A stretch of DNA of 23,736 nt, taken from the IMG/VR virus record IMGVR_UViG_3300010379_001430, positions 1-23,736 of that record; one strand, written 5' to 3'. The position numbers and the translations under genes were made by a program. This stretch comes from a virus. Positions 2,797 to 22,390 of the stretch are shown one piece after another. Each line of letters opens with the position of its first letter. The stretch's first letter is position 1. Below the pieces are notes generated by a model. The model was given only the letters and a program-made list of their open reading frames with translations, made no database searches and was not told the origin of the DNA.

Positions 2797-3117
2797 TTAA
2801 AAGCCGCGTGAGGCGCGCAAATACTTGGAACGGGCGGGAATCAGAATGCCGGGAGCGCCCTCGGGGCCTCCGTTGCGCGTGGCAAACTCTCCAGAACCGG
2901 GTTCACCGGCCCCGTGATACGTCCGAATGCCATCCCTTGGCTTCCCACAGCGCCGTTTCTGGACGACAAGGCGTTCACTGAGGCTCGCTCTGTGCCAGGC
3001 TATCCGGCTGCGGAGGTCTCTCGCTTCAGAGCGATTAAACGTAGCGAATGGCTGATATCCTGTACATTCGACGCCAAGCACCGCTGCCCGTAACGAAAAA
3101 GATGCCGAGGTCTCCAA
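2797..3117 (-). pseudogene. Possible 3' remnant of a small tail gene in the 329-base gap 2788-3116
   Basis: This covers the only gap longer than 300 bases. One minus-strand frame is open for about 106 codons and stops 9 bases before the ATG of the hub gene. It has no internal ATG or GTG; its upstream end is only a TTG at 3117, at the start of the cargo gene. The last 40 codons read like a basic, glycine/proline-rich small phage protein ending ...SKYLRASRGF. This fits a phage gene that lost its 5' end when the plus-strand cargo gene arrived, but a chance open frame in GC-rich DNA is equally possible. The gap must also hold the promoter of the plus-strand gene; I do not see a convincing one. 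Confidence 0.22.
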
Positions 3118-5222
3118 TGGTTCCCGACGCCTTCACCGAACAATTGTTATTCGCCGCAGATTCAGGAGATCTGGATCGTCTAAGGCGTATGGTAGACGAG
3201 AGTGGAACCGCCGATGCGACGTCAGCCTTGCAGATGGCGTTCCTTGCGTCTAAGACCGAATTGTCCCGTTACGTGCTCGCTGCGGCTGGCGCGCTACCTG
3301 ATGCGGTCGAGGTCAATCTTCCGCTCATACGCTACGCGTCCGCGCGTGCGCTCATCACGTTTGGTGCGGCGTTGACGAGTGCTGAGGATAATCCTGCGGT
3401 TCACCACGATATCGAGATCAACATTTCCGGCGGTGTTTTACAGACTGTCGTAGTACACAAGACGCCAGCGCCCGCCGGTCACGACAAGGAGGCTAGAAGC
3501 ATCTGGCCAAATGTATGTGTCGCCGTACCGATGATCGATCCGATTATGAGGATAGCCGCTGAGGCGAGTATTTTTCAGATCTGCCAGAACGCAATCACTG
3601 CGCCTGCCGTGCTGGCTGCCAACCTCGTTGTGGCGGCGGCCTTCTTCCCTAACGTTGAATTAGGAGTACCTGCCGGTTGGGCGGCAGCGGGTATTGGCTC
3701 AGCAGGGTGTTTCATCTTCGCGGGTGTGGTACCCAAAATTGGGGGAGCAGCGGGTGGAGTGCTGTGCAACCTGCTCATGGATCACCGAGCAAGAGCGGGC
3801 GGTGAGTTGCCTGGCGTCGGAACAATGACGTTACCCGTCCCAGGCTCATATCAGAATTCTTCTGCCGACGTTCGCGCTTGGCAGCAGCACGGAGAGCGTA
3901 TCAATTTCCTTCGGAACAACCTCGAATCTCGGCGTGATGAGCAGTATCGGGCCCTCGGCGAACAACAGCAGCGTGAATGGAACCAGAGTGCTGAACAGAT
4001 GCGAGACCAGCAGCGGCTTAAGAGCCTCCTTCGGGGGGATCTGGCTAGGCGGGGATCAACTTGGAGCGAATTCCAAAGTAACCGCTATGTCGGAATTAGC
4101 AGGCAATCCACTGACATTGTCAAGAAAAACCAAGAGCGTTATAAAGATATTTCCGAGCACAACCTGGGTGTCGCGCGACAAATGAATGCCCTGAAAAACT
4201 GGGCTGTCGAGGCCGGTGAAGCGTTTGACAATAATGTTCGGAGCGGAGCGAACATCGCCCCAACGTTCCCCAGCGAGGTCGACTTCGGAACTGGGAGAAG
4301 GAACGGCGGAGCCTTAGGGGACCCCAATTCTCCATACGACAAGAACTCGTCTCCTTGGGGACGTTGCGCCGGTGTCACGACGCTTTGTTTCGATGCGAAT
4401 GATCCAGGACATTTACAACTATATGGTCTATCGATGGAAGATTCGGTGGCGGAAGTGGGCAATTCACAGAGATGGCGCGAGTTCGTAATTGAGCTTAAGC
4501 GTGAAGAGCATCCTGGCAAGCCAAGCGCTGTTGGAGCCAAGTATGACTATCGAGTTAGCTTCACGCCTTGGCCAACCAAAGTCATTAATGTGCCCGATCC
4601 TCACATCGGAACGCACGCTGTAGCTTATTGTACGCCGACCATCAAAAACTTCGCCCTTGCGGTGCGCAACGTTGGTGCCACGCGGCGCAAGCTTTCGTAT
4701 TATGGCTGCGGGAAGTTAATAGAACGGGTACTGTGGCAAAATGGGGAAGCTCTTCAGACTGTAGTCGACCCTGGAGCCTCAGTCTCCCTGAACGTGGAAC
4801 TCGTAGATCTATTCAACCCCTCGCACCAGGAGCTCAACTTTCTCTGTATCCTGGCCGACGAACAACCCGCAGCAAACTTAACGTTGGATTATCACTGCTT
4901 GGAAGCAACGAAGGCCGTGGAGTTGTCGTCCGGCACCAAGCCGAGTACAGATGGCGAGAGCTGGAGCCCGAACTATCTGTTGTCAACCGGCCAAGCGCCA
5001 CTTGGTTACCTCGTGGGATCGGCCGAGTTTTGGCTGACAGGCGACCGACGCTGCGGGGAGTGGGCGACTTGTTCAGCGCTAAGCAAGAACTCGAAGGATG
5101 TGTGTTACGCATTCAGCTTGCAGGGTCACAACGAATCAGGTGTGCAGGACAAGGTGAGGTATAGCGAGGGCCATCTCCGTGTCATATACCGATTGGGCGA
5201 CGCAAGTGTACAACTGACTTGA
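3117..5222 (+). CDS. Cargo gene 1: ankyrin-like / hydrophobic / coiled-coil protein of unknown function
   Basis: The start at 3117 is preferred because GAGG (3107-3110) lies six bases before its ATG; in-frame ATGs at 3048 and 3102 have weaker sites. The product is 701 residues. Residues about 5-90 are short helical pairs of ankyrin type (LLFAADSGDLDRL and following). Residues 152-221 are strongly hydrophobic and glycine/alanine-rich, enough for two membrane passages or a glycine-zipper hairpin. Residues about 250-373 are charged and glutamine-rich, coiled-coil-like. Residues about 400-701 are probably beta-rich and have several cysteines. The gene runs against the phage operon, between the distal-tail gene and the hub gene, and is less GC-rich than its neighbours (line 4081-4140: 27/60 G+C). 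I recognise no family. A membrane-acting immune or exclusion protein is an inference from architecture alone. Confidence 0.75.
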   Translation: MVPDAFTEQLLFAADSGDLDRLRRMVDESGTADATSALQMAFLASKTELSRYVLAAAGALPDAVEVNLPLIRYASARALITFGAALTSAEDNPAVHHDIEINISGGVLQTVVVHKTPAPAGHDKEARSIWPNVCVAVPMIDPIMRIAAEASIFQICQNAITAPAVLAANLVVAAAFFPNVELGVPAGWAAAGIGSAGCFIFAGVVPKIGGAAGGVLCNLLMDHRARAGGELPGVGTMTLPVPGSYQNSSADVRAWQQHGERINFLRNNLESRRDEQYRALGEQQQREWNQSAEQMRDQQRLKSLLRGDLARRGSTWSEFQSNRYVGISRQSTDIVKKNQERYKDISEHNLGVARQMNALKNWAVEAGEAFDNNVRSGANIAPTFPSEVDFGTGRRNGGALGDPNSPYDKNSSPWGRCAGVTTLCFDANDPGHLQLYGLSMEDSVAEVGNSQRWREFVIELKREEHPGKPSAVGAKYDYRVSFTPWPTKVINVPDPHIGTHAVAYCTPTIKNFALAVRNVGATRRKLSYYGCGKLIERVLWQNGEALQTVVDPGASVSLNVELVDLFNPSHQELNFLCILADEQPAANLTLDYHCLEATKAVELSSGTKPSTDGESWSPNYLLSTGQAPLGYLVGSAEFWLTGDRRCGEWATCSALSKNSKDVCYAFSLQGHNESGVQDKVRYSEGHLRVIYRLGDASVQLT

Positions 5223-9422: not shown

Positions 9423-9881
9423 TCACGCTGCCTTGAGCATCACGATGGGACGAGCCTGAAACGCCGAGAGGACGGCCTCGCGGTCATGCTGCGATACACC
9501 CCACTGGCGTTCGCGGCGGTTGTTGTAGAAAGCGATCTGCGAAGCCGTCTGGCTCCGGCCCGGAAGGGATTCGTCGAGAAAGCCGATGGCCGCGCGGTTT
9601 TCGTTCGCAGTCAGGACCTTGAGGCAGCGCAGGGTGTGCCCGTTCCACGTCCAGTCGCGGACGGGCCGGAGACCGCGCGCAGCCTTGTAGTCGGGATAGC
9701 CGCGACGGCCCGCCTGGCCTGGCTTCAGAGGCGCAGCCGCCTGGTCGTAGATGTTCTGACCGCTCTGGATGCGTGCGCGGATCGAATCCGCCAGCACCTG
9801 CCCGAAGCCCTGCATCTCGTTCGCAGTGTACGGCGAATAAACGAAGCGAGCGCTTTTGATGACGGTTTGGAATCTGGCCAT
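9423..9881 (-). CDS. Tail-completion / virion-morphogenesis-like protein
   Basis: From the ATG at 9881 the product is 152 residues beginning MARFQTVIK. A GTG at 9959 would add 26 residues, but these look like non-coding sequence of the cargo gene's upstream region. The protein is basic. It has a helical N-terminal half (EMQGFGQVLADSIRARI), a central WTWNGHTLRCLKV segment and a C-terminal ERQWGVSQHDREAV motif. The last of these recalls the R-x-x-G-x-S-x-x-D signature near the end of Mu gpG/P2 gpS-type completion proteins. It stops one base before the tape measure ATG, so the two are translationally coupled. The cargo TIR gene separates it from the chaperone-like genes and diverges from it. No Shine-Dalgarno site is obvious before either start. 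Confidence 0.6.
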   Translation of the reverse strand: MARFQTVIKSARFVYSPYTANEMQGFGQVLADSIRARIQSGQNIYDQAAAPLKPGQAGRRGYPDYKAARGLRPVRDWTWNGHTLRCLKVLTANENRAAIGFLDESLPGRSQTASQIAFYNNRRERQWGVSQHDREAVLSAFQARPIVMLKAA

Positions 9882-10049
9882 GAGACGATCTGCGAACAGC
9901 AGCGCTGCGGACAATTTGGTGGTCAGTTGGGGACTCCAACGCGGGCGTTCCACGACCACATGACTCCGTTACCTCCCGCTACGCCGCAGTTCGACTCGAG
10001 TGCAGGACGATACGTCTTTGATATCATCATTCGACAGCACTGGAGCACT

Positions 10050-11498
10050 ATGCCTGACCAAACGCTATTGGACCAGCGGATGAAGCGGCGCTTGGATTCT
10101 GAAAAGCAATTTGAGCTAGAGCAGCTTTTCAGTGAACTGCGCGGCGAGGAGTATCCTGATCCGGACGCGGAATACGATTTCATCATAAGTTCAGCCGGTG
10201 ATCACGGCAAGTCGGCTTGCGGTGCCTTTGCTGGGGCGCTCTGGCTTGTAGATCACGCGACCGTTTTCTTGCAGGCTCTAAGGCAGCATCAAACCACCAA
10301 GCCAGTGAAGCCCGGCGAGGTCTTGGGTGCATCTGCCGCAATTATGAAGGCCCTCGCGGAAGAAATCGATCTCCCTGAAGATGACGAAACTCTCCAGGTT
10401 GTATCGGGCATTCTAGCGGGTTTAGGAGTGGCTATTTCCACAGGTATGGCGTCGCCCGAGTGGGAGGACGAACAGCGTAAGAAGATCGAGTCGTTCGCCG
10501 AGCAAGCATCGTTCGCATTTAGTGGCACCGGCAATGAACTTCTTGTTTTGCCGTGGGCGCTAGAAGTTGAGAGATCGCCAAGCCTATCTCCTCTCGAAGA
10601 TCGCGTCCGGTCGCTTCGACGAGTAATACCAGATAACGTGCGCTCGCATCCCATAGGAGCCGGGGAACTCAATATGTGGGCGTACTTCTTGTTGCTTATT
10701 GGAAGATGGAAGGCGGCGACGGCTATGGCCGTCGTAGCAACCGAAATGAAAGTCACTTCAGCAGGCCTCGATACCTTGGGTTGGGCTCATTTTTTTGAAG
10801 GGAATATCGACAAATCAATCGAAATTCTTTCCAAAGCGATGAAAATGCATGAGGCGGCACTCGGCACCCCAAAGTGGCAAAGAGAGATCTGGAGCGAATG
10901 GGCAGAGGCGGGTTACCACAAGTGCTATGTTCTGTTCCGCTCCGGGCGTTGCGCCGAAGCGACCGGAGTGCTTCAACGACTGACTGCTTACGCGCCAGAT
11001 TCATTCTGGACTGATAAGGCTAAGACGCTGGAAGGCTTGCTCCCTCAGAGTGATGTGGCAACGGAACGAGGTAGCAGGGCCGAAGAGTCATTCGCCTTTG
11101 ATGTCGCGTTGTCGTTTGCAGGCGAAGACAGATCATACGCGGTCCAGATCGCGGAACGTCTCCAGGCACGAGGAGTCACCGTCTTCTATGACGATTTTCA
11201 AAAAGCGGAGTTGTGGGGAAAGAACCTCTACTCGCACCTTAGCGACCTCTATCAGAATAAAGCGCGCTTTTGCGTGATGCTGCTTTCTAAGAACTACAGT
11301 GCAAAGCCGTGGCCAACTTTGGAGAGAGAAGCAGCCCAAGCTCGGGCTTTTCAGACCGCAAGAGAATATATTTTGCCCGTTAGGATCGACGGGTCCACAA
11401 TAGCAGGAGTTCTTCCGACTGTCGGTTATCTTGACTGGCACAAAGAAGGTCCAGACGGAGTAGTGGAAAGTCTCTGTAGAAAGCTATTTACGAAGTAA
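10050..11498 (+). CDS. Cargo gene 2: helical-repeat protein with C-terminal TIR domain
   Basis: The ATG at 10050 has GGAG (10042-10045) four bases upstream. An in-frame ATG at 9960 has no such site. The product is 482 residues. Residues 1-180 are an uncharacterised domain; 203-335 form helical pairs of TPR type (GWAHFFEGNIDKSIEIL is the clearest). Residues 349-482 are a TIR domain: FDVALSFAGEDR, FYDDF, LWGKNL, VMLLSKNY, then a WPTLERE helix and YILPVR. E425 in that helix is where NAD-cleaving TIR domains keep the catalytic glutamate. Prokaryotic TIR proteins of this layout commonly serve in antiphage defence by consuming NAD or making a nucleotide signal; this is expected but not shown here. 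The gene opposes the phage operon, between the chaperone-like genes and the tail-completion gene. AT-richer codon use (line 10741-10800: 28/60 G+C) points to a separate origin. Confidence 0.88.
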   Translation: MPDQTLLDQRMKRRLDSEKQFELEQLFSELRGEEYPDPDAEYDFIISSAGDHGKSACGAFAGALWLVDHATVFLQALRQHQTTKPVKPGEVLGASAAIMKALAEEIDLPEDDETLQVVSGILAGLGVAISTGMASPEWEDEQRKKIESFAEQASFAFSGTGNELLVLPWALEVERSPSLSPLEDRVRSLRRVIPDNVRSHPIGAGELNMWAYFLLLIGRWKAATAMAVVATEMKVTSAGLDTLGWAHFFEGNIDKSIEILSKAMKMHEAALGTPKWQREIWSEWAEAGYHKCYVLFRSGRCAEATGVLQRLTAYAPDSFWTDKAKTLEGLLPQSDVATERGSRAEESFAFDVALSFAGEDRSYAVQIAERLQARGVTVFYDDFQKAELWGKNLYSHLSDLYQNKARFCVMLLSKNYSAKPWPTLEREAAQARAFQTAREYILPVRIDGSTIAGVLPTVGYLDWHKEGPDGVVESLCRKLFTK

Positions 11499-11583: not shown

Positions 11584-11949
11584 CTACCGAGAACGCCGGT
11601 GGCACCCGTCCCCACTAGTGAGCTGCTCCTGTCGCTCGGCCTCGATCAGTTCGAGCACCCGGAATTCCTCCTCGGAGATATCGGCCAGCGTGATGGTCAG
11701 GCCGATGTTCTTCGCGCTCAGGAGGCGGAAACATCGTCGCACTAGGCCACCGTTCGGTGTATCCATTGCCTCTTCGAGCAGGTTCTTCGGGCACCCCGGC
11801 CCATGACCGACGTCGATGGCCTTCCAGTCCGCACCGCAGGCGGGGCAGCCGTCCAACTCCGTCTGCGCCGAGTAGCTGCATCGGCGGCAGCGAAAGACGC
11901 GGTCAGGGCACTCTTCGTCAAGGCCGCACAGCGCACCCTGATGCAACAC
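11584..11949 (-). CDS. Zinc-ribbon protein in the tail-chaperone T position, -1 frame
   Basis: Read from a GTG at 11949 the product is 121 residues, but no Shine-Dalgarno site precedes it. The frame is open back to 12015, overlapping the end of the gene at 12003-12611 by 13 bases. It is the -1 frame relative to that gene. This is the layout of lambda G and GT, in which a -1 ribosomal slip fuses two chaperone parts, and these two genes lie between tail tube and tape measure as G and T do. The protein has CRRC and, 11 residues later, CPAC, a typical four-cysteine zinc ribbon. A helical acidic segment (ISEEEFRVLELIEAERQEQL) follows. It may therefore be the T part of a fused chaperone, or an independent zinc-binding protein with an upstream non-ATG start. 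Confidence 0.6.
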   Translation of the reverse strand: MLHQGALCGLDEECPDRVFRCRRCSYSAQTELDGCPACGADWKAIDVGHGPGCPKNLLEEAMDTPNGGLVRRCFRLLSAKNIGLTITLADISEEEFRVLELIEAERQEQLTSGDGCHRRSR

Positions 11950-12621: not shown

Positions 12622-13641
12622 TTACTGGCAGATGTGGCCAGTCGTGCTCAAAATCACGGCACTGAAGATGCCGTTCGTGTTGTTGTACATCGGCTCGCCG
12701 GTCACCGAGACCGTCACGATGCCGTCCACATCCCCGATTTCCACTACCTTGAAGGCCATCTGTTGCCACGTCCCGGTGAAGGTGTCGTTGGAGCCGTACG
12801 TCAGGCCCACAACGGCGGTACCCGTGGTCAGCGCGAGCAGCGTGGCAAGTTCGGTCGAGCCATGCTGATAGCGCGCCACATAGGTGAAGGTGGCCATGCG
12901 GTCGCCGATCTCGAAGCGGCCCTGCGTCGCGTAGCCGTCCTGAAGCGTGACACCGGGGAAGAAGCCAGGCCGGAAGTTGTTGTCCCATCCCATGTCGAGC
13001 GAAACGAAGTTCTTGCTGGCCACGTAATCGACGCCGTTGATCGTCAGCGTGAGGCTGGGCGATTGCATTTCGTGCCAGGTCATCGGTGCGGGCATCGTGA
13101 CGGCGCTCGGCGTCGTGTAAAGCCCGCTGTGCACCAGGTCTTCGGTGACGACCGCGCTCAGGCGTCCCGGACCCTGCTTGATGGCCAGCTTCCAGCCCTT
13201 CACCGCGCAGCCGGTGAAGAGTTGATCGAGCACCGCCGAGCCGCCCGGGCGGATCTGCTGCACAAACTGGAAGTAGGGAAGCTCCAGCCCTGTGGAGTTC
13301 GTCGCCGGATTGATGGGCGTGATGGTATACGTGTACGGTGCGGCCGAGCCGGTCACCACGACGCTGCCGAGACCGAAGCCCAGCGCATGCGCGAGGATCT
13401 CGCTCGAAGCGGGGCGCTCGACCGTATACGAGCCGTTGTCGTAATGCGACTTCCACTGCTGGGTCGGGAACTCGTGGCCCTTGCCGATTTCCGTCCGGTC
13501 ATCGTCGTTGACGACCTTCTGCGACCACGGCTTCTTGTTGAGGTTCGGCAGACGCCAGTATCCCGGCGTCGTGGGAGTGGTCGAGATGCTCGCCTGGACC
13601 GCAAAGCCCAAACCAATAAGTAATTCGTTCAGATTTGGCAT
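12622..13641 (-). CDS. Major tail tube protein
   Basis: This protein of 339 residues begins MPNLNELLIGLGF. It is rich in threonine, glycine and aromatic residues spaced as in beta strands, with few charged helices, as in siphovirus tube proteins. Its place before the chaperone-like genes and the tape measure is the V position of lambda. Segments such as VKGWKLAIKQGPGRLSAVV, MTWHEMQSPSLTLTINGVDY and FEIGDRMATFTYVARY look like paired strands of a tube-forming domain. It is longer than lambda gpV (246 residues), so it may contain a duplicated tube fold or an added surface domain. GAGG lies upstream at a somewhat long spacing. The ATG overlaps no other gene; the 60-residue gene stops two bases before it. 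Confidence 0.85.
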   Translation of the reverse strand: MPNLNELLIGLGFAVQASISTTPTTPGYWRLPNLNKKPWSQKVVNDDDRTEIGKGHEFPTQQWKSHYDNGSYTVERPASSEILAHALGFGLGSVVVTGSAAPYTYTITPINPATNSTGLELPYFQFVQQIRPGGSAVLDQLFTGCAVKGWKLAIKQGPGRLSAVVTEDLVHSGLYTTPSAVTMPAPMTWHEMQSPSLTLTINGVDYVASKNFVSLDMGWDNNFRPGFFPGVTLQDGYATQGRFEIGDRMATFTYVARYQHGSTELATLLALTTGTAVVGLTYGSNDTFTGTWQQMAFKVVEIGDVDGIVTVSVTGEPMYNNTNGIFSAVILSTTGHICQ

Positions 13642-13642
13642 T

Positions 13643-13825
13643 TCACTTTTCCTCTTCCGCCTGCTCTTGCGGTGCCTGTGTGGCCGGTTCGTGGCCGACC
13701 GGTTCCTGGAGTCTTACCTGATGCCAGCCAGCTACCATCAACGGGACGAGATCCTTGTTCGGATCGGTCACCACAACCTCTTTCACGTCGCCCGCGGGCG
13801 ACTCCATGAAGATTTTGATCTGCAT
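13643..13825 (-). CDS. Small 60-residue protein between neck and tube genes
   Basis: A short gene with GAGG six bases before its ATG (13825) fits tightly between its neighbours: 8 bases after the terminator-like gene and 1 base before the tube gene. The product begins MQIKIFMESPAGDVKEVVV, a short beta hairpin, contains a VAGWHQVRL segment, and ends in a proline/glutamine/glutamate tail. I recognise no function. Tight spacing and a good ribosome site make it a real gene of the tail module, probably a minor structural or assembly protein. Confidence 0.7.
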   Translation of the reverse strand: MQIKIFMESPAGDVKEVVVTDPNKDLVPLMVAGWHQVRLQEPVGHEPATQAPQEQAEEEK

Positions 13826-13833
13826 TGCTGCCT

Positions 13834-14328
13834 CTACGGGTTTTGAGATTCGATGAGGTTCGCCCGAACCTCGAAGTATTCGAACGTGGCTCCATCCGCG
13901 CTGATCACGACCGTGTTGCGCTGCGCCGAGGGCAGGTAAAAATCCATCGGTTCGCAGTTGGCGTCAACCGGCGTGTGCAGCATGCTGAGACTTCCGCTCG
14001 ATGGAACGTCGTTGACGAGCCAGTTGAAGATGTCCTCGTAGCCGACGCTCGCACTTTCGGGCGCACGCAGGTACAACGAAAACTCGTGAACGAACACGAG
14101 AGCGCTGCCGAGCCTGCCGGGCCGCGTACCCTGCCATGCGATCAGGATCGAACCGGGTGGCATCGAGAGGATTGCCAGCCGGATGTTGTTCTCGGTCTGC
14201 TGCCCGAAGACGGTGGCGTTTTCGGTGTAGTACTGGATGCGGCTGCCGTCACCGATCGCCTCGACCAAGTTGGGCAGAGCCTGGAGTGCGGTCACCCACT
14301 CGCCGAGGATTGTTTTCGGATTGATCAT
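13834..14328 (-). CDS. Tail terminator / neck-like protein
   Basis: This 164-residue protein lies between the FII-like head-tail joining gene and the tube gene, where lambda has Z and U. It has an N-terminal helix (TILGEWVTALQALPNLVEAIG), several strands (IRLAILSMPPGSILIAWQG, FVHEFSLYLRAP) and a central IFNWLVNDV helix. A helix packed on a small sheet is what tail terminator proteins share, though the sequence alone does not prove it. The cargo DUF4062 gene lies upstream and diverges from it. The 114 bases between the two ATGs must hold both start signals. Confidence 0.62.
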   Translation of the reverse strand: MINPKTILGEWVTALQALPNLVEAIGDGSRIQYYTENATVFGQQTENNIRLAILSMPPGSILIAWQGTRPGRLGSALVFVHEFSLYLRAPESASVGYEDIFNWLVNDVPSSGSLSMLHTPVDANCEPMDFYLPSAQRNTVVISADGATFEYFEVRANLIESQNP

Positions 14329-14442
14329 GGCACCGATGAAAATCGTCTCTGCTGGCTGCCACAGGGTATGAGATCAGTGCAACCGAGATCGAGCAAATCG
14401 GGATTCGAGCGCGCTACCCATCGCGTGATCTAATCTCTATTT

Positions 14443-15354
14443 ATGGCAAAGCTTGGCCAGGCGAAACCCAGCGTTCCGGTGTTCGTTAGTTCCACGTTTA
14501 CCGATATGCAGGAGTATCGGCGCAAGGTGCAAGACGCGTTAACGCAACTGGAAACCATCGTACGGGGCATGGAGCAATTTGGTTCGAAGCCGGGCAGTCC
14601 GGTCGAAGAGTGCCTTCGGGTCGTCGGCTCCTGCATGGTCTACCTCGGCATATTTGGAATGAGGTACGGAAGCATTCCTGACGGCCACGAGTCCTCAATG
14701 ACTCATCTCGAATACGACGAGGCCCAGAAACTGAGCCTGCCGTCCTTAATCTATCTCCTTGACGAAAATCAACCGATTCCCGCGAAAGATGTCGAGACCG
14801 GCATCGGGGCGGAAAAGCTTCGGGAGCTAAAAGAGCATCTGAAGAGGCGCCATGTTGTCAGCTTTTACACGACGCCGGAGGACTTGCAGGCACGGATCTT
14901 ACACGACGTTCCCACCCTGCTTAAGGACCTCGGAGCCGACGTGGCCCCTGCCCCCTCAACTGAGCCTTCCGATGCCGAGTTGCTGGAGCAATTCCTGATT
15001 CTTCCCAAGCTATTTCGGAGACGCTCCGTAACTTGTGACTTCGTGAACGACAAGTTCGAGGCGGCACCGGAAGGAACCTGCGAGGCCCTTGACCTCGACA
15101 TCGGCGCTACGGTGCGCTCCTACAACAAGCCGAGTGGAGCGGGAAGGAATATGTACCTCTACGGCGAGGGAGACATGGCCGTGAGCCTAATGCGGCTTCC
15201 AAAGGGAACGAAAGTCCGTGTCCGAGCCGAAACCGCGTTCGGAGTTGAGCAGGACGTTCGATTTCATGACGACGGTACTCTGGTCAGAAAGGACAGCGTC
15301 ATCGGATTGGTGATAAAAGAAATCCTGGGTACCGATTCGACGATGGCTCAATAG
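14443..15354 (+). CDS. Cargo gene 3: DUF4062 protein with an uncharacterised C-terminal domain
   Basis: The product is 303 residues. Residues about 11-105 are a clear DUF4062 domain: VPVFVSSTFTDMQEYRRKV, then LRVVGSCMVYLGIFGMRYGSIP and SMTHLEYDEAQKLSLPSLIYLL. DUF4062 has a TIR-like Rossmann core and is often joined to NTPase or repeat domains in predicted immune proteins. Residues about 120-165 are helical. Residues about 180-303 look beta-rich (LDLDIGATVRSY, YLYGEGDMAVSLM, KVRVRAETAFG), perhaps a sensor; I do not recognise it. No Shine-Dalgarno site precedes the ATG. A -10-like TCTAAT at 14429-14434 is only eight bases from it, so the message may be leaderless. It runs against the phage operon and its stop lies four bases from the stop of the FII-like gene, a very tight convergent fit. 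Confidence 0.88.
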   Translation: MAKLGQAKPSVPVFVSSTFTDMQEYRRKVQDALTQLETIVRGMEQFGSKPGSPVEECLRVVGSCMVYLGIFGMRYGSIPDGHESSMTHLEYDEAQKLSLPSLIYLLDENQPIPAKDVETGIGAEKLRELKEHLKRRHVVSFYTTPEDLQARILHDVPTLLKDLGADVAPAPSTEPSDAELLEQFLILPKLFRRRSVTCDFVNDKFEAAPEGTCEALDLDIGATVRSYNKPSGAGRNMYLYGEGDMAVSLMRLPKGTKVRVRAETAFGVEQDVRFHDDGTLVRKDSVIGLVIKEILGTDSTMAQ

Positions 15355-15358
15355 CAGC

Positions 15359-15685
15359 TTACGCGGCGCGCTGCAACAACGTCAGGGCGATCATCCCGTA
15401 GGCATCGGGCTGGCGCACAGTCGTCACCGTGTACTGAGCGCCCCACGCGGTCACCCAGTCGCCCTTGGCCGGTGGGTTCGGGAGATCCGGCGGGTTCACC
15501 GAGATCTCTTCGAAGTTCGCTAGCCCGCCCGACTCCTCCCGCACGCGGGCGTGCCGGATTACGGTAATCGTCAATGGAGTGCCCACCGCAGTTCCAGCCT
15601 GTACCGCCTGATACACAACTGGCTCTCCGAACGTCTGTTGCATAACGGCGTTCGCCGCTATATCGAGTGAGGACCAGCTGGGCAT
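15359..15685 (-). CDS. Head-tail joining protein, lambda FII-like
   Basis: This 108-residue product is close in size to lambda gpFII (117). It begins MPSWSSLDIAANAVMQQTFGEPVVYQ, with a helix followed by a small beta barrel: LTITVIRHARVRE, a loop, PPAKGDWVTAWGAQYTVTTV and a final LTLLQRAA strand. The D-x-V-T/PxxGDxV step before the last strands is characteristic of this family, which connects the capsid portal to the tail terminator. Gene order agrees. It stands between two cargo genes: the TIR/glycine-zipper gene upstream and the convergent DUF4062 gene downstream. Confidence 0.75.
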   Translation of the reverse strand: MPSWSSLDIAANAVMQQTFGEPVVYQAVQAGTAVGTPLTITVIRHARVREESGGLANFEEISVNPPDLPNPPAKGDWVTAWGAQYTVTTVRQPDAYGMIALTLLQRAA

Positions 15686-15737
15686 GGGAGATGAACGGCA
15701 TCTTCTGGTGAAGCCACCCTTGAGCAGACGTGCGATT

Positions 15738-16367
15738 TCAGCGATCCCGAATAGTCTCGAAATAACCTCTGATCAGACCTTCAAGTTCCCTTTCGCGTGA
15801 TCGTCTTCGCGAGTCGACGACAGCGCCAGCAATGCTTCCGGCCAAACCGCCCACCACAACACCGACCGGGGCAGCTGCCACACCGATGAAGGCTCCAACG
15901 GCCGCGCCCACCGCAGTGGAGACCACATTTGCCGGGGTGTCCTTAGGCGAGGCCGAAGAAACTGGCACACCTTTTCGATGCCGTTCGGCGAGTTCCCCGT
16001 TGAGCTGACACGCGTGGTTTAGCTTCCCGCGAAGATCTATCCACTGCCTATCAGTGATAGACTCTGGCGGCGGCAGCGGGCAAAGAAGGACCGGGATGAT
16101 CACCTTCTGGCGCTGCACGGCCAGCGCCAGTTCCTTCGAAACGTAATCCGAATCTGCCGTGTCGCAGCACCAGAGGAGTACGAAACGCTTGCACCCGACA
16201 ATCGCGCTTTCGATCTCTACTGGCCACACCTGACCGGGCGAAAGAGAGTGGGCATCCCAGAAGACTCGGCGCGAATTGACCGTGAGCAACTGAACCAAAG
16301 GCTGCACGAGTTCTCTGTCCTTATGGCTATAAGAAATGAAGACATCGTAGTGGCGAGTGGTCGGCAT
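15738..16367 (-). CDS. Cargo gene 4: TIR domain protein with glycine-zipper membrane tail
   Basis: The product is 209 residues. Residues 1-115 form a TIR domain: YDVFISYSHKDRELV, VFWDAHSLSPGQVWPVEIESAI, CKRFVLLWC, then YVSKELALAV and IIPVLL. E79 in the YVSKEL helix is where SARM1 and other NAD-cleaving TIR domains have the catalytic glutamate. Residues 148-185 are a glycine/alanine-rich hydrophobic stretch with repeated GxxxG/GxxxA spacing, a glycine zipper able to insert in or oligomerise at the membrane. A basic/acidic helix (SRRRSRERELEGL) ends the protein. This combination suggests membrane-linked NAD cleavage or membrane damage upon activation; that is an inference. It lies on the phage strand between the DUF2190 gene and the FII-like gene, 85 bases after the former. 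A weak TAGAAT box is present in that gap. Confidence 0.9.
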   Translation of the reverse strand: MPTTRHYDVFISYSHKDRELVQPLVQLLTVNSRRVFWDAHSLSPGQVWPVEIESAIVGCKRFVLLWCCDTADSDYVSKELALAVQRQKVIIPVLLCPLPPPESITDRQWIDLRGKLNHACQLNGELAERHRKGVPVSSASPKDTPANVVSTAVGAAVGAFIGVAAAPVGVVVGGLAGSIAGAVVDSRRRSRERELEGLIRGYFETIRDR

Positions 16368-16452
16368 CCGCAGTTTTGACTCGTACTGTTTGATTCTATG
16401 CCGGAAGCCCCAAGCGACAGGCAGAGCTTCGGGCCGAAAGCGGTCGGTCGAT

Positions 16453-17253
16453 TTACCCGAGCGTGATGACGCTGTAGTACGCGGTAACGACCAGCGTTCC
16501 GTTGCCGGTGGCGAAAGCGGCGGTGCCGTTGGTGATATCGATGCCCGTCGCCGCCGGGGGCTGGTAAGCCGCCGAAGGAGGAGCCAGCACGTTGACGCTC
16601 GCGGTGCCGCTGTTCACGGTCGCCGCCGCGAGGTTGCCCGCATGCGGATTGATGCTCGTCCCGTGATACTGGAACGTCACCGCACCGCCGCCGGTGAAAT
16701 TCGTTCCGCCCGGCTTCGTCTGAATCACAAACTGATCGGGCACCACCACCTGGCCCGCAAGCGGCGCGGGAATGATATTCACCGGCGTGCCGTTCATGGC
16801 CTCGATCTGCGCGGCGGTCAATACGACCGTGATCTTCTGCAACAGACCGGGGTCCATGTCGGACGAAGTCACAAGACCGATAGAGCAGAGATTCAATCGC
16901 ACGCGGACGGTCGCGTCGCCGGTCAGTCCGCCCGGTGCGTTGACGCCACTGGCCTGGCAAAGGTCGGCAACGCCGATCTCACGGTTCCCTGGGGTCGTGG
17001 AAGGGGATGCCGGTGGGGCGGATGTGGCCACGAAGTTGACGTTGTCCCAGTAGACTTTGTCGCCGGGATTGAAAGTGCTGCCATCCTTCGCGAGGTCGTA
17101 AACTCCCCACGTGACGATCTCCAGCGACGCGCCCGAAGCCGCGCTGAAGACCGCGACGCCGAAAAGATTTCCAGCAAGAACGCCCTGCCCGGTAACGACG
17201 GTGTAGGGCGCGGTGACGGTGAGGGTCTCCCCCCGATGTACATAGTTCTGCAT
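16453..17253 (-). CDS. DUF2190-type capsid decoration protein with extra C-terminal domain
   Basis: The product is 266 residues. Residues 1-105 match the DUF2190 plan: MQNYVHRGETLTVTAP, GNLFGVAV, VYDLAKDGSTFNPGDKVYWD. That domain is about 110 residues in stand-alone members and is placed in capsid-decorating or stabilising proteins. Residues about 118-266 are a second domain starting at KITVVLTAAQIEAMNGTPV and containing VTFQYHGTSINPHAG and GIDITNGTAAF. The position directly after the capsid gene matches lambda D. The fusion probably gives a decoration protein with an exposed extra domain on the capsid surface. The spacing to the capsid gene stop is 30 bases, with a purine-rich ribosome site. 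Confidence 0.8.
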   Translation of the reverse strand: MQNYVHRGETLTVTAPYTVVTGQGVLAGNLFGVAVFSAASGASLEIVTWGVYDLAKDGSTFNPGDKVYWDNVNFVATSAPPASPSTTPGNREIGVADLCQASGVNAPGGLTGDATVRVRLNLCSIGLVTSSDMDPGLLQKITVVLTAAQIEAMNGTPVNIIPAPLAGQVVVPDQFVIQTKPGGTNFTGGGAVTFQYHGTSINPHAGNLAAATVNSGTASVNVLAPPSAAYQPPAATGIDITNGTAAFATGNGTLVVTAYYSVITLG

Positions 17254-17283: not shown

Positions 17284-19437
17284 CTATGCGCCCGCGCTCT
17301 TTTGCAGGCCGCGATAATCGATTGCCGCCGCGCCGAAGTCCATGCGCGCTTTGATCTCGACGCCGTCCACTTCGAAGCCCTGTCGGGTCTCGATGTACAC
17401 GCCCTGCTGGCCTTCGAGGTAGCAGTATTCCAGCGTGTCGATCAGCGCCGGATCAGTGAACAGGAACCAGTTGGTCGCAGTGCCGGTCGAGTTGTCGAGA
17501 CGCGGCTCCACAACCGGAACCAGCGAACGGACCCACTCGGGCACCACCTTCGTCTGGTCCGACGAGGCGATGTTGATCGGGTAGATCAACTGCAGGGCGT
17601 AGGTCTCAAGCGACGGAGGCACAGCCATGAAGCGCGGCACCAGATCGAGCGGTGTTCCCTGCGGAGCCTTCTGGAGCCGCATCTGCACGCGGGCTTTGGC
17701 CAGCGCGGTCAGCGGAGCGGAACTACCCACGGTGGGATCGATGCTGCTGGCCACACCGCTGAGCAGGTTGCTGTGAGCGGTATGGAAGATCGCCTTGCCG
17801 TCGAGAGTCATGACCGGGTTGCTGGTTATGAGTCCCCAGACGGTGTTCGATTCGAGTTGTGCGGCCGCCACGCCCAGAATCGCGGGGATGCGCGTCATGG
17901 CCTGGAGATCGTCGTTGATGATGACCTTGCGCGTGATGGCCACGACCTCGCCGAACGTCTGGAGCGAGTAGTTCGTGTTCATGTCGGTGAGGTTCGCGCG
18001 GTGGTACTCGCCCTTTTCGTTCAACTGCTGAAGGGCCGGCGCATCGCTCAACTGGACACGATTGATCGGCTTGAAGTCGGGAGCGGTCACCTGGCGGCAG
18101 AAGGGCTGGAAGGTGCGCGGATAGGACTCGTAAGCCTGCCGCAGCGTCTTGTTGGCGACGTTGGCGAGGATTGCCGGGAAGTCTGATGTCGATTCAGCGC
18201 CGCCGCCGAAGTATTCGGCTCCGCGGCTCGGAGCCTGCAACGCCAGTTCGGCGATCCGGTTCTTGTTCATGCCCCGGTGGTTGATGCCCCGAATTTCGAG
18301 GGACTCGCGGGCCATCTCCATGAGCGACAAGCCCACGTACTCGCGTCCCATCTCTTCGGCGCGCCGCTGATTTTCCGCGCCGCATCCGTTCAGCAGTTCT
18401 CCGGTCTTCGGATGCTTTGCCAGGAAGAACTTCGGATCGTGCCGCAGCAGCATGGCGTTCTGCATTGCAGCCAGCCGGGTCTCCCCGCCATCGCGGGTGA
18501 TGCTCAACTCGCTGCGAATGGGCCGGTCTTCGCCGCCCGTGGTTTGCTGACCCTTTGCACTCAGCGCCGCGAAGGCCTCGACGCTGAACTGGTCTGCCGT
18601 CTTGCCGTCGGAGATTGCTTTGCGGACAAAGTCATCTCCAAGAATCGATTTGAAGCGAGTGGCGCGGTGTTCGATTTCAACAATGCGCTCTCGCTCCAGC
18701 TTCACCGCCTCGCCGCGCGCTGCGACGAGTGCCTGTTCGTTCACACGGGCCTCTGCGCCCGCCGTCTGTGTAGTGCTTTCTGCCATGGCAGGTTTCTCCT
18801 TATGTGGGCTTGAGGCCCGTGCTGCTTGCCCGTCGGTCTTTGTGGACAAAGGCTCGGCGGACAAAAACGTTGTGTTGAAATCGGCGGGGACCGGAACGAC
18901 GGATATCTCGAACGGCTCCCAATCGGTCGCCGTGAACATGCCGATCTCGTTCGGGTTGCCGTACGGTGGCTTGCCTTCCGTCTGAGCCTGTACCGTCGTC
19001 TTCTCGCGGTTGTAAATCCACGCTCCGAAGCTCAGGTTCTGCACGATCCCGCTCGATACCTTGCGGAACAACTCCGCGCCGTCCTCGTCGCCGAGATCGA
19101 ACTTCAGCGTGGCCATCCCATTCGAACCGTCCGCCCACGCCTTGTTCACGACGCCGACCTGGGCCTTGGTGCCAGCCTTCCCGGCGACCACGGACTTGTA
19201 GTCGTCGCCGGTGAAGTGGGTATCGAAGACGGGTGCGCCCGCATTCAGACGGTCGAGGCGCGCCCCGCCCATGTCGAGCGTGAGCATGTACGGATCGCCG
19301 GTGTCGGGGTCTTTCCTCGGAACCTGCGCGCCCGTGTACCAGACGACGTCAATCGTGCCGTCCTTCTCGTTGGCCGTGCTGGCGACAGGCTTTGCATCGG
19401 ACGCGGCGAAAAACTCAAGCGCCTGATTTGCTTTCAT
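17284..19437 (-). CDS. Prohead protease / major capsid protein fusion
   Basis: One 717-residue frame holds both functions, as in a known group of phages. Residues 1-200 are a U35-type prohead protease: VFDTHFTGDDY supplies the candidate histidine, SGIVQNLSFGAWIYN the candidate serine, and EISVVPVPAD closes the domain. Residues about 220-320 are a charged helical stretch (ALVAARGEAVKLERERIVEIEHR), the scaffold or delta-like part. Residues about 330-717 are the HK97-type capsid: LRQAYESYPRTFQPFC, FGEVVAITRKVIINDD, PAILGVAAAQLESNTVWGL and LIDTLEYCYLEGQQG. The protease should cut the scaffold from the capsid during prohead maturation. An internal ATG with a strong ribosome site at residue 218 may give a separate scaffold-capsid product. 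The portal gene stops 15 bases before the start. Confidence 0.93.
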   Translation of the reverse strand: MKANQALEFFAASDAKPVASTANEKDGTIDVVWYTGAQVPRKDPDTGDPYMLTLDMGGARLDRLNAGAPVFDTHFTGDDYKSVVAGKAGTKAQVGVVNKAWADGSNGMATLKFDLGDEDGAELFRKVSSGIVQNLSFGAWIYNREKTTVQAQTEGKPPYGNPNEIGMFTATDWEPFEISVVPVPADFNTTFLSAEPLSTKTDGQAARASSPHKEKPAMAESTTQTAGAEARVNEQALVAARGEAVKLERERIVEIEHRATRFKSILGDDFVRKAISDGKTADQFSVEAFAALSAKGQQTTGGEDRPIRSELSITRDGGETRLAAMQNAMLLRHDPKFFLAKHPKTGELLNGCGAENQRRAEEMGREYVGLSLMEMARESLEIRGINHRGMNKNRIAELALQAPSRGAEYFGGGAESTSDFPAILANVANKTLRQAYESYPRTFQPFCRQVTAPDFKPINRVQLSDAPALQQLNEKGEYHRANLTDMNTNYSLQTFGEVVAITRKVIINDDLQAMTRIPAILGVAAAQLESNTVWGLITSNPVMTLDGKAIFHTAHSNLLSGVASSIDPTVGSSAPLTALAKARVQMRLQKAPQGTPLDLVPRFMAVPPSLETYALQLIYPINIASSDQTKVVPEWVRSLVPVVEPRLDNSTGTATNWFLFTDPALIDTLEYCYLEGQQGVYIETRQGFEVDGVEIKARMDFGAAAIDYRGLQKSAGA
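18784..18801 (-). promoter_or_regulatory. Internal ribosome site and start codon inside the protease/capsid gene
   Basis: AAGGAG (18801-18796 on the minus strand) is followed after nine bases by an in-frame ATG (18786-18784) at codon 218, exactly at the border between the protease domain and the scaffold/capsid part. Initiation here would give a 500-residue product, MAESTTQ and onward, without the protease. Independent starts for scaffold or capsid are known in lambda (C/Nu3); use of this one is inferred. Confidence 0.5.
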
Positions 19438-19452
19438 GTTTGAACCTCTTTT

Positions 19453-21126
19453 CTACGAGCGGAAAATTCGTGAAGGAGAATCCCAGGACCGCGAAGCGGG
19501 CGTCCCCGAGAACAACTCCGCGATAGCTTCGGCATCCGCATTCGAAACGGCGGGCATCTTCGAACCGGGCATAGTCGGCTTCGAACTCGGCGTGCGCTCG
19601 TCGCTTGCGGCAGGCTGTTCCTGGCCGCGATCCGTCACGTTGCGCGGGTCGCAATCCAGAATGATTTCGAGCTTGTCGAGAATCTTGTTGACGCGCGCGA
19701 TCTTCTGCAACCGCTCTTCCGGGTCGTATCCGTTGCGCGAGATCGCCTCGAACAGATCGAGCGTCCCGGTACGGATCATCTTCAGTTCCGCGGCCGCGTC
19801 CTTCACCGGATCGACGCTCTCGAACTTCGGCGCGGTCCACTGCACCGCATGAACGGCGACCTTCGGATCGTCGAGCGCCTTCTGCGGAATCTTCCCCTGA
19901 AGGATCAACGTATCCACGAAGCGACGCCACACGGGCATGCAGAACAACGGGATCAGCGTGAGCCAGCGGTAAGCCTCCACCGTGTTGCGGAACCCGAGCA
20001 TGCCGCCGCGCCACGAGGAGTAATTCACCTGCGACATATCGCCGGTGCCGAGCTCGTAGGGTAGGCCGATGCCTGCCATAATTCCCTGCAACTCGGTCAT
20101 CTTGTACTCGCGGTAACCGCCCGCCGCCGGAGGATTGTTGAACTTGATTTCCTGTCCCGGCTTCAGGTACTCGACCATCCCCGGCTGAAACGTTTCGACG
20201 GGCGCTCTCGTGACCGGGTCGGTACCGGAAATGCCGAGCGGATCGCCCTCGATGCCTTCCGGCTGCTGCACGAACGCGGTGACGCACGCCTCTACCTTCT
20301 TGCGCACGCGCTCCGCGTCGCAGTAATCGTCGAGGTCTCGGAGCGCCATCATAACGGGCGAGAGCCACGGAACGCCTCGCACCTGGCCGGGCCGGAGCAC
20401 GCGATAGACGTGCATGATCTGATCGGCCGGCACGGGCTGGCTGATGATTCCGCCGCGCGGATTCAGGATCAGCACGCCACCCGGGTGATAACTGAACAGC
20501 CAATAGGCGGCGCGACGTCCCATCTCGTCGAACTGCACGCCCTCCATCACGTGGCCGTTGACCAGCCCCATCGTTCGGGACTGGTCTAAGAAATCTGCCT
20601 CCAGCATTTGAAGCTGTAGAGGAACGCGCAGATTAGAGGCGGCCAGACGCGGGCGAAACCGTACGAGCGCTTCGCCGCTTTCCGCCATCGTGCGAACGGC
20701 CAGCGTTTGCATCCCAAAGAAGTCCAGGCGCTGCGGCGTGTCGCAGGCATCCGCGAAGAAAGGCCACTCGGCGTCGATGATCTTGTCGATTGCAGCATTG
20801 CCTGTCTTCGCCTTCGGAACAATCCCGGTCCCGACTACATTCCCGGCCAACTCTTCAATCGCGCGCGCCGCATACGGATTGTTGCGGATTAGATCGCGGC
20901 TCCGGTTGCGAAGCCAGATGAGCGATCCCATCAACTCGACGTTGGCGTCCGTCGAGGCGGCGTACCAGCCATGCGCGCGTCGCCCTGCCGTCGCTCCGTC
21001 GTAGCTGAACCGTTGCGCGTGCCGATCCAGATAGTCCTGGGTCAGTTCCAGCGCCACACGGCTCCGCACCCGTTGCAGCGCGCGCTGCGGCGCAACAATG
21101 CCGATGGCTTTGTCGAGAAAATTCAT
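19453..21126 (-). CDS. Portal protein, lambda gpB family
   Basis: The product is 557 residues; lambda gpB has 533. Typical segments are RSRDLIRNNPYAARAIEELAGNVVGTGI near residues 73-100, LQMLEADFLD, ADQIMHVYRVLRPGQVRGVPWLSP, and YSSWRGGMLGFRNTVE, all hallmarks of this family. The last 50 residues are low-complexity and rich in serine, proline and charged residues. Twelve copies should form the ring through which DNA enters and leaves the capsid and to which the terminase docks. The start ATG at 21126 has no strong Shine-Dalgarno site. The 151 bases upstream, between it and the pentapeptide cargo gene, contain no gene I can support; a 36-codon open frame ending in GAATGA is not convincing. Confidence 0.93.
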   Translation of the reverse strand: MNFLDKAIGIVAPQRALQRVRSRVALELTQDYLDRHAQRFSYDGATAGRRAHGWYAASTDANVELMGSLIWLRNRSRDLIRNNPYAARAIEELAGNVVGTGIVPKAKTGNAAIDKIIDAEWPFFADACDTPQRLDFFGMQTLAVRTMAESGEALVRFRPRLAASNLRVPLQLQMLEADFLDQSRTMGLVNGHVMEGVQFDEMGRRAAYWLFSYHPGGVLILNPRGGIISQPVPADQIMHVYRVLRPGQVRGVPWLSPVMMALRDLDDYCDAERVRKKVEACVTAFVQQPEGIEGDPLGISGTDPVTRAPVETFQPGMVEYLKPGQEIKFNNPPAAGGYREYKMTELQGIMAGIGLPYELGTGDMSQVNYSSWRGGMLGFRNTVEAYRWLTLIPLFCMPVWRRFVDTLILQGKIPQKALDDPKVAVHAVQWTAPKFESVDPVKDAAAELKMIRTGTLDLFEAISRNGYDPEERLQKIARVNKILDKLEIILDCDPRNVTDRGQEQPAASDERTPSSKPTMPGSKMPAVSNADAEAIAELFSGTPASRSWDSPSRIFRS

Positions 21127-21263: not shown

Positions 21264-21290
21264 GCCGATTCGGTTGCCTAACCGAACGGC
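21264..21290 (-). terminator. Hairpin overlapping the stop codon of the pentapeptide gene
   Basis: TTCGGTT (21269-21275) and AACCGAA (21280-21286) are perfect inverted copies around a four-base loop. GCCG (21264-21267) and CGGC (21287-21290) extend the stem across a one-base bulge. The TAG stop of the pentapeptide gene (21280-21278) lies in the loop. No U-run follows on the minus strand, so a factor-independent terminator is incomplete; it may stabilise the 3' end, attenuate read-through into the portal gene, or bind a protein. Confidence 0.5.
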
Positions 21291-22390
21291 CTACCGAAAT
21301 AGGTGAGCACCCAAAGCGCGATTAGATAGACACTCAGCAGGGACTGAAAGCCTGAGGCCGTCCGCGCCCAGCCTACCGCCTTGAGGTCGTATTCACGACG
21401 CGTCAGCAACCGCAGCCAGCGCCCGAAGTTGATGTCGCGAAAGCCGATGTTGAAGGCCGACATCAGGCTGAAGAACATGGCAGCGCGCAGCACGCGCCAC
21501 TCCTGCCGCAGCCAGAGGAAAGGAAGCTTCCACCATCTGGCGGCGCGAAGGGTGCGCGGTCGGATTTGTATTCCTTGAGTGTTCGATTTGCCTCGGGACC
21601 ATCTGGTCCCGACAAGATAGATGCCGCCTTTCCCGTTCCGGTGCATGAAGACGGCATACACGATTGAGAAAAGCACCCACAACCACAGAACGATTCGTAA
21701 AGGCCGCCCCGGCGCAAAACCGTACTGGCAGGTCAGGTCGAAGGCGACGCGCTTGAACCATCGCTCGATTGGCGGGTCCAGATCCGCCTCGCGGCGATTC
21801 AGCGCATAGGTGATCGCTCGCTCCTGCTCTCTGTACCCAGCATCCTGGAACTGCTTGCGGAGTTGGTTTAGCGGGCCAGGGTTGGACTTGTAAGTCATCA
21901 GTTCCAGATGCTGCGCTGCTGCCAAGTACTCCGGCTTGGTTAGGCTACGGGGCTCGAATATCGCACCTCCTAAGTCGGCACCAATAACCCACGCGTCCGT
22001 TAAAATGGCCCCGGTAAGGTCGGAGTTGCTCAGGTCGGCACCCTTCAGGTTGGCGGAGCCAAGGGCCGTGGGGGCCAGAATTGCGCTGCTGAGGTTGGTC
22101 CCCTCCAGATCGGCCTCCTCCAGCATGTAATAGCTCAAGTCTGCCCCGTGAAGATTTGCGCCCTTCAGTGCTGATTCCCACCAGCTGTCCAACCCACGCT
22201 TGTGCTCGGGTGTCAGCAGCCAGAGCTTGTGCTGCTTCGAGATGTCATCGAGGTCCGCGCGTGACCTGACCTTGCGATCCCGGTCCGTCCATTTCCCGTC
22301 CCATGGCTGCTGTGCCAGTGTTGGGATAGTGGCGGAAAGGCAAAGCGAAATTAAGATTAATCGAGAGCCAACTCTTGTGCGCCGCTTCAT
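21278..22390 (-). CDS. Cargo gene 5: pentapeptide-repeat membrane protein
   Basis: The product is 370 residues. Residues 1-26 are a Sec signal peptide or signal anchor (MKRRTR, a leucine/isoleucine core, likely cut at TLA/QQ). Residues about 74-148 are pentapeptide repeats of A(D/N)LxG type (KGANLHGADL, KGADLSNSDL). Residues 231-249 are a clear membrane segment. A cytoplasmic-type basic loop follows, then an amphipathic stretch near 303-316 and a last membrane segment 350-366 ending YFGRPFG. This C-terminal membrane part is shared with other pentapeptide-repeat proteins whose function is unknown to me. It is inserted between the gpW-like gene and the portal gene, on the phage strand, with its own TATAAT box and a terminal hairpin, the classic moron layout. 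A role in envelope sensing or superinfection exclusion is possible but not shown. Confidence 0.85.
   Translation of the reverse strand: MKRRTRVGSRLILISLCLSATIPTLAQQPWDGKWTDRDRKVRSRADLDDISKQHKLWLLTPEHKRGLDSWWESALKGANLHGADLSYYMLEEADLEGTNLSSAILAPTALGSANLKGADLSNSDLTGAILTDAWVIGADLGGAIFEPRSLTKPEYLAAAQHLELMTYKSNPGPLNQLRKQFQDAGYREQERAITYALNRREADLDPPIERWFKRVAFDLTCQYGFAPGRPLRIVLWLWVLFSIVYAVFMHRNGKGGIYLVGTRWSRGKSNTQGIQIRPRTLRAARWWKLPFLWLRQEWRVLRAAMFFSLMSAFNIGFRDINFGRWLRLLTRREYDLKAVGWARTASGFQSLLSVYLIALWVLTYFGRPFG

Follow-up and report, generated by a model that had tools for sequence, protein, structure and literature searches.

The question raised by this locus is whether one small gene, lying among the head genes of a phage, could encode a complete NAD-cleaving effector. 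The window, i.e., the whole stretch of DNA analysed here, is one entire virus record of 23.7 kb (23,736 nucleotides; IMGVR_UViG_3300010379_001430), the record itself being a fragment. The gene was followed from its reading frame and domains to its homologues, its insertion site and the other cargo of the same phage.

The gene encodes a TIR domain resembling those of NAD hydrolases

The open reading frame at 15738..16367 was confirmed on the minus strand, with an ATG start at 16367 and the product of 209 aa that the preliminary description had given; the plus-strand frame of the same interval was interrupted by stops. The TIR domain that had been claimed for the protein was recovered by Pfam TIR_2, by the AF2 model and by Foldseek, and spans residues 7-115 (16023..16349, minus strand). 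The Pfam TIR_2 match covered residues 9-115 with an E-value of 1.5e-22 and 80.8 bits, against a cut-off of 28. The TIR part was modelled confidently by AF2, for the most part with a pLDDT of about 90, and the Foldseek comparison with the PDB returned 117 matches at E<=0.001, with TIR domains on top. The leading matches were C. elegans TIR-1, Hydra TRR-2, SARM1, the SPARTA TIRs and AbTir; TIR-1, SARM1, AbTir and the SPARTA TIRs are NADases. A profile built from the TIR homologues likewise gave its top scores to the NAD hydrolases tir-1/SARM1. No second sensor domain (STAND, reverse transcriptase, APAZ or SAVED) was detected in the 209-aa protein by profile searches. The matches to the TIR-NLR, retron-TIR, SPARTA and TIR-SAVED families were confined to the TIR part, and those to NCBIfam models were far below their cut-offs. 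Pfam revealed no DUF4062 domain in this protein; the neighbouring gene has one.

The residue that had been named as a catalytic-type glutamate, position 79, is indeed Glu (codon 16131..16133, minus strand). It corresponds in position to the catalytic residue of TIR NADases and aligned with the catalytic Glu of both SARM1 and AbTir, in which the role of this residue is established. Conservation of the glutamate among homologues had been put forward beforehand as a point on which the proposed reading could fail. Glu79 was invariant in 15 of 15 aligned TIRs from several phyla (this protein and 14 from other genomes); the 14 comparison TIRs were mostly chosen via an N-terminal motif, and Glu79 lies outside that motif. 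It was present in both membrane-tailed homologues as well (see below). The aromatic residue ahead of Glu79 is Tyr75, whereas AbTir has Trp at this position. Many TIRs work as scaffolds, and the Tyr75 substitution could be taken to indicate that the domain serves assembly or signalling without enzymatic activity, or else that the effector has decayed and the Glu was kept by chance or for the fold. This explanation is quite unlikely, given the intact frame, the invariant Glu and the fact that the best profile matches were NAD hydrolases.

The protein also showed weak similarity to ThsB (best PADLOC ThsB match 7.5e-07; Pfam ThsB_TIR 3.6e-05, 24.5 bits, cut-off 21.2). Such matches would agree with a Thoeris-like signalling TIR that makes a cyclic ADP-ribose messenger from NAD for a separate effector, the tail serving for localisation only. 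For the P2-like phage AC1 it has been proposed that a TIR protein signals to transmembrane proteins encoded by separate genes (PMC9122126). We regard this arrangement as unlikely for the window protein, as the insert consists of a single gene and the cargo proteins of the window that were tested include no recognisable ThsA-type partner (SIR2-SLOG, macro-TM or caspase), a distant partner being possible because the record is a fragment.

The TIR domain is followed by a glycine zipper and a charged helix

The preliminary description placed a glycine zipper at residues 148-185, followed by a short charged helix, and both elements were borne out. The zipper (15813..15926, minus strand) has the form GxxxGxxxG, an AAAP turn and GxxxGxxxGxxxG, and was assigned from a shuffle test, hydropathy and weak Gly-zipper profile matches. 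Residues 148-184 are almost exclusively small or hydrophobic and rich in Gly, Ala and Val. The eight Gly are found at positions 154, 158 and 162 and at positions 169, 173, 174, 177 and 181, the two runs being separated by P167. The tail contains five GxxxG pairs (G154/158/162 and G169/173/177/181) versus a mean of 1.39 in shuffles of the same composition (P=0.0017), and none of the other Gly spacings tested in the tail was significantly enriched over shuffles. As a sequence pattern the glycine zipper is genuine. The Pfam Gly-zipper_YMGG model matched the tail with E=0.005 and 17 bits, under its cut-off of 28.9. Residues 186-209 (15741..15812, minus strand) are charged and predicted to be helical. 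In the AF2 model a single helix extends over residues 168-208 with moderate confidence (pLDDT about 63-76), and the first zipper half was modelled with low confidence.

The zipper segment is hydrophobic, with a Kyte-Doolittle value of about 2.0, and membrane insertion of the predicted tail is plausible. A crude sum of insertion energies gave +1.9 and +4.2 for the two zipper halves. These values are only marginal, so constitutive membrane insertion of the tail is not assured. The glycine zippers of the T6SS DNase effector Tde1 and of the T7SS effector TelE are reported to be necessary for translocation or toxicity (PMC10240207, PMC10434224), and the window protein might by analogy be a secreted antibacterial effector whose zipper serves either end. 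We consider such a role highly improbable: neither an adaptor gene nor one linked to secretion was recognised nearby, and the gene is located inside a phage head module.

Hydrophobic tails recur among homologues, and glycine zippers are rarer

No homologue over the whole length of 209 residues was found at high identity. An uncharacterised protein of 225 aa, WP_221067486.1, encoded on plasmid pRS11DPr5 of Methylomagnum ishizawai (L082), shares the combination of a TIR domain, 34% identical over 112 residues, with a Gly/Ala-rich tail that is on its own enriched in GxxxG (P=0.016, shuffles). It differs from the window protein in that the tail is longer and more hydrophobic, and in the plasmid location of its gene, downstream of two GTPase genes. 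The Methylomagnum tail also gave a weak match to DUF3482 (E=0.0013), below the cut-off.

The second tailed relative, an uncharacterised protein of 295 aa, is encoded at 179-1066 of the phage record IMGVR_UViG_3300036046_000272 (L140) and was reached only by a three-row alignment (A4). It was 31% identical over residues 7-184, with similar motifs in the TIR and a hydrophobic C-terminal part, and its gene lies just upstream of a portal gene on the same strand. Unlike the window protein, it carries ordinary hydrophobic segments and no glycine zipper, and it belongs to another phage, distantly related to that of the window (portal 24%, capsid 31% identity). The TIR of L127, a protein encoded in a Bacteroidota genome, was more similar to that of the window protein (38%), but no hydrophobic tail follows it. 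A hydrophobic segment followed the TIR in eight of the ten best-scoring distinct homologues, a count that may be biased, as the homologue profile was partly built from tailed proteins.

Viral contigs searched with the protein alone, with a two-row alignment or with the Methylomagnum protein yielded no relative, and neither did the phages collection. The genome scan with the TIR-zipper protein returned 16 TIR relatives, none of which had a glycine-zipper tail when the full frames were read. Alignment searches of genome samples from Pseudomonadota, Chloroflexota, Actinomycetota and Bacteroidota returned ordinary hydrophobic tails and no further glycine zipper beyond Methylomagnum. Judged from these sequences, bacteria repeatedly combine a TIR with a hydrophobic segment at the C-terminus, and the glycine-zipper form is a rarer one with a single other example found, that of Methylomagnum. 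In line with the preliminary description, no characterised system with exactly the TIR plus glycine-zipper build was found in the literature searched, and the listed co-mentions of both terms did not concern a bacterial TIR. Proteins of this kind are known; what is new is the minimal build and its setting within a phage head module.

The TIR-zipper gene is private cargo at a clean junction

The minus-strand genes of the window encode a terminase, a head-tail adaptor, a portal protein, a protease-capsid fusion, a cement protein and an attachment protein, as well as tail proteins assigned by position. The TIR gene is the only gene of a 767-bp insert (15686..16452) that extends from the stop of the cement gene to the start of the head-tail attachment gene. 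The upstream border of this slot is the phage cement or head decoration protein (16453..17253, minus strand; Pfam PF09956 1e-16, phrog_122), and the downstream border is the head-tail attachment protein (15359..15685, minus strand; Pfam PF05354 2.6e-10). A scan with the capsid protein yielded 80 relatives, the closest of which have -1 to 7 bp in place of the insert. The gap between the cement and attachment genes was 6 bp in L002, L003, L005 and L020 and 5 bp in L007, and in L009, L010, L011 and L054 the cement stop meets the attachment start. The capsid proteins of L002, L003 and L005 are 99% identical to that of the window, yet these phages have 6 bp at the slot. Inserts at this position were found in 3 of the 56 records having both genes, namely the window, L008 and L021. 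The ORF of the L008 insert (196 aa), at the same slot, is another gene, with no Pfam match and no TIR motif on reading. As near-identical relatives are empty at the site and inserts occur in so few records, the TIR gene can be described as private cargo at a clean junction.

The GC content of the TIR gene is 58%, versus 62-65% for the head genes. It lies on the head-gene strand with short gaps at both sides, and late expression is possible owing to this shared orientation. No consensus sigma-70 promoter was found around the gene, and promoter and terminator scans of its surroundings performed no better than shuffles. The edges of the insert showed no convincing direct or inverted repeats, and no Rfam RNA or tRNA was detected in the whole window. 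The strand and the short flanking gaps would also suit a late phage protein (a virion component, an ejected protein or a lysis helper) made together with the head genes and having no role in the lysogen. That is very unlikely, since the gene is missing from relatives with a 99% identical capsid protein, its GC content departs from that of the head genes, and L008 has another gene at the site.

Integrase genes are present in the records of the relatives L020, L011 and L051; none was seen in the window itself. These integrases suggest that the phage group is probably temperate, and the window phage is probably temperate too. Host assignment via the capsid protein did not succeed, the best matches in Pseudomonadota genomes being just 39-56% identical.

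Proposed mode of action and comparison with known systems

We judge it moderately probable that this one gene provides the prophage with a membrane-associated TIR NADase that works through abortive infection, and infer for it NADase activity, membrane association, oligomerisation through the zipper, a trigger and a role in defence. The signalling, non-enzymatic, virion and secreted explanations considered above are less supported. A one-gene effector is plausible on sequence grounds because the TIR gene is a stand-alone insert in the phage. The gene would be a moron, or accessory gene, in a probably temperate phage, set between the genes for head decoration and head-tail attachment, and its N-terminal TIR of the NAD-cleaving type, two-part zipper and charged C-terminal helix would together form a one-protein effector. 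The zipper would serve helix packing and would probably be attached to the inner membrane or switch into it. The protein would be kept inactive in the lysogen. Upon infection by another phage, a trigger, either a phage protein or a membrane disturbance, would cause copies of the protein to cluster via the zipper; the clustered TIR domains would then form active sites, deplete NAD and thereby abort the infection. The activation of TIR NADases by clustering is established and is restated in PMC13174449. Apart from the TIR itself, only the zipper and the charged helix are candidate clustering parts of this protein. The effector reading is further favoured by the DUF4062 gene and the second TIR gene of the same phage, by the defence-like genes in the slots of relatives, by the integrases of relatives and by the tailed TIR protein next to the portal gene of L140. 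Counting against it are the failure to find a high-identity homologue over the full length, the marginal insertion energies and low-confidence model of the zipper, the tail-less L127, and the shared orientation with the head genes. A bolder version, which we regard as doubtful, would make the zipper a switch: membrane insertion or oligomerisation induced by infection would cluster the TIRs and link the sensing or permeabilisation of membranes to the destruction of NAD. The phage would in this version stack three TIR-superfamily NADases among its structural genes as layered lysogen immunity.

AbTir and SARM1 share with the window protein the fold and the position of the catalytic glutamate; both are activated through other domains and, to our knowledge, have no glycine zipper. 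TIR effectors known so far mostly depend on a sensor, whether separate or present as a large domain. If the proposal is true, the window protein would rank with the smallest self-contained NADase effectors, with a TIR, a zipper and a short helix in 209 residues, and would offer a compact model for membrane control of TIR activation. Phage AC1 and the TIR-NLR of P4-like satellites are alike in carrying TIR cargo amid conserved phage or satellite genes, theirs protecting the lysogen or host (PMC9122126). AC1 employs separate genes, whereas the window protein joins a TIR and a hydrophobic part in one small chain, and the satellite TIR-NLR has an extra STAND NTPase and TPRs. Swarozyc (PMC13174449) follows a single-gene NADase logic like the one proposed here, and the window phage has a DUF4062 gene as its next cargo; Swarozyc differs in having DUF4062 and not TIR_2, a helical stalk and an auxiliary domain in place of the zipper, and activation by a phage portal protein. 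PdpSau (PMC10127798) is likewise a single membrane-anchored prophage accessory protein that blocks other phages, but it acts with membrane depolarisation, and its abstract reports no TIR.

Other cargo genes of the window phage and its relatives

Besides the TIR-zipper gene, four cargo genes break the structural module. The neighbour of the TIR gene encodes a DUF4062 (TIR-like) protein of 303 aa (14443..15354, plus strand; Pfam PF13271 4.9e-23), with Glu90 in an LEYDEA motif as the candidate catalytic residue. According to a preprint (PMC13174449), the DUF4062 family comprises TIR-like NADases, and a phage portal protein activates its Klebsiella member. The DUF4062 protein of the window is a candidate prophage-borne NADase of the Swarozyc type. 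A viral-contig scan with this DUF4062 protein gave no relative. The second TIR cargo protein, of about 483 aa, has a C-terminal TIR (10047..11498, plus strand; Pfam TIR_2 1.2e-17, residues 353-467); its start at 10047 was picked by inspection within a frame open from 9288. Its N-terminal part is uncharacterised, with a weak TPR signal, and the gene runs opposite to the tail genes. A gene for 724 aa located between tail genes (3048..5222, plus strand) had no recognised domain in profile searches. The fourth gene encodes a pentapeptide-repeat protein with a hydrophobic C-terminal part (21278..22390, minus strand; Pfam PF00805 1.2e-14); it has a signal-like N-terminus and sits between the head-tail adaptor and portal genes.

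The slots of the relatives held 72 groups of ORFs of at least 110 aa, some chance ORFs included. Their contents comprised, among others, FRG/PDC-S15, DzbA, HD-CE plus HATPase, FGE-sulfatase, WD40 and methyltransferase genes. By these assignments several of the slot genes are defence-like, and the majority are without assignment. This phage family, its head and tail genes punctuated by exchangeable, often defence-like cargo, is a promising place to look for new anti-phage genes. The busiest cargo hotspot was the slot between the genes at 11584-11949 and 9423-9959, which exceeded 350 bp in 25 of 30 records and held unrelated genes. The close relative L020 carries two further cargo proteins, one of 886 aa with HD-CE plus HATPase (18186-20846) and one of 658 aa with HATPase and a partial REase_II match (13011-14987). 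In L064, an ORF at 917-1501, between the portal and capsid genes, gave a weak ferritin-like match and belongs to a cluster of 38 members.
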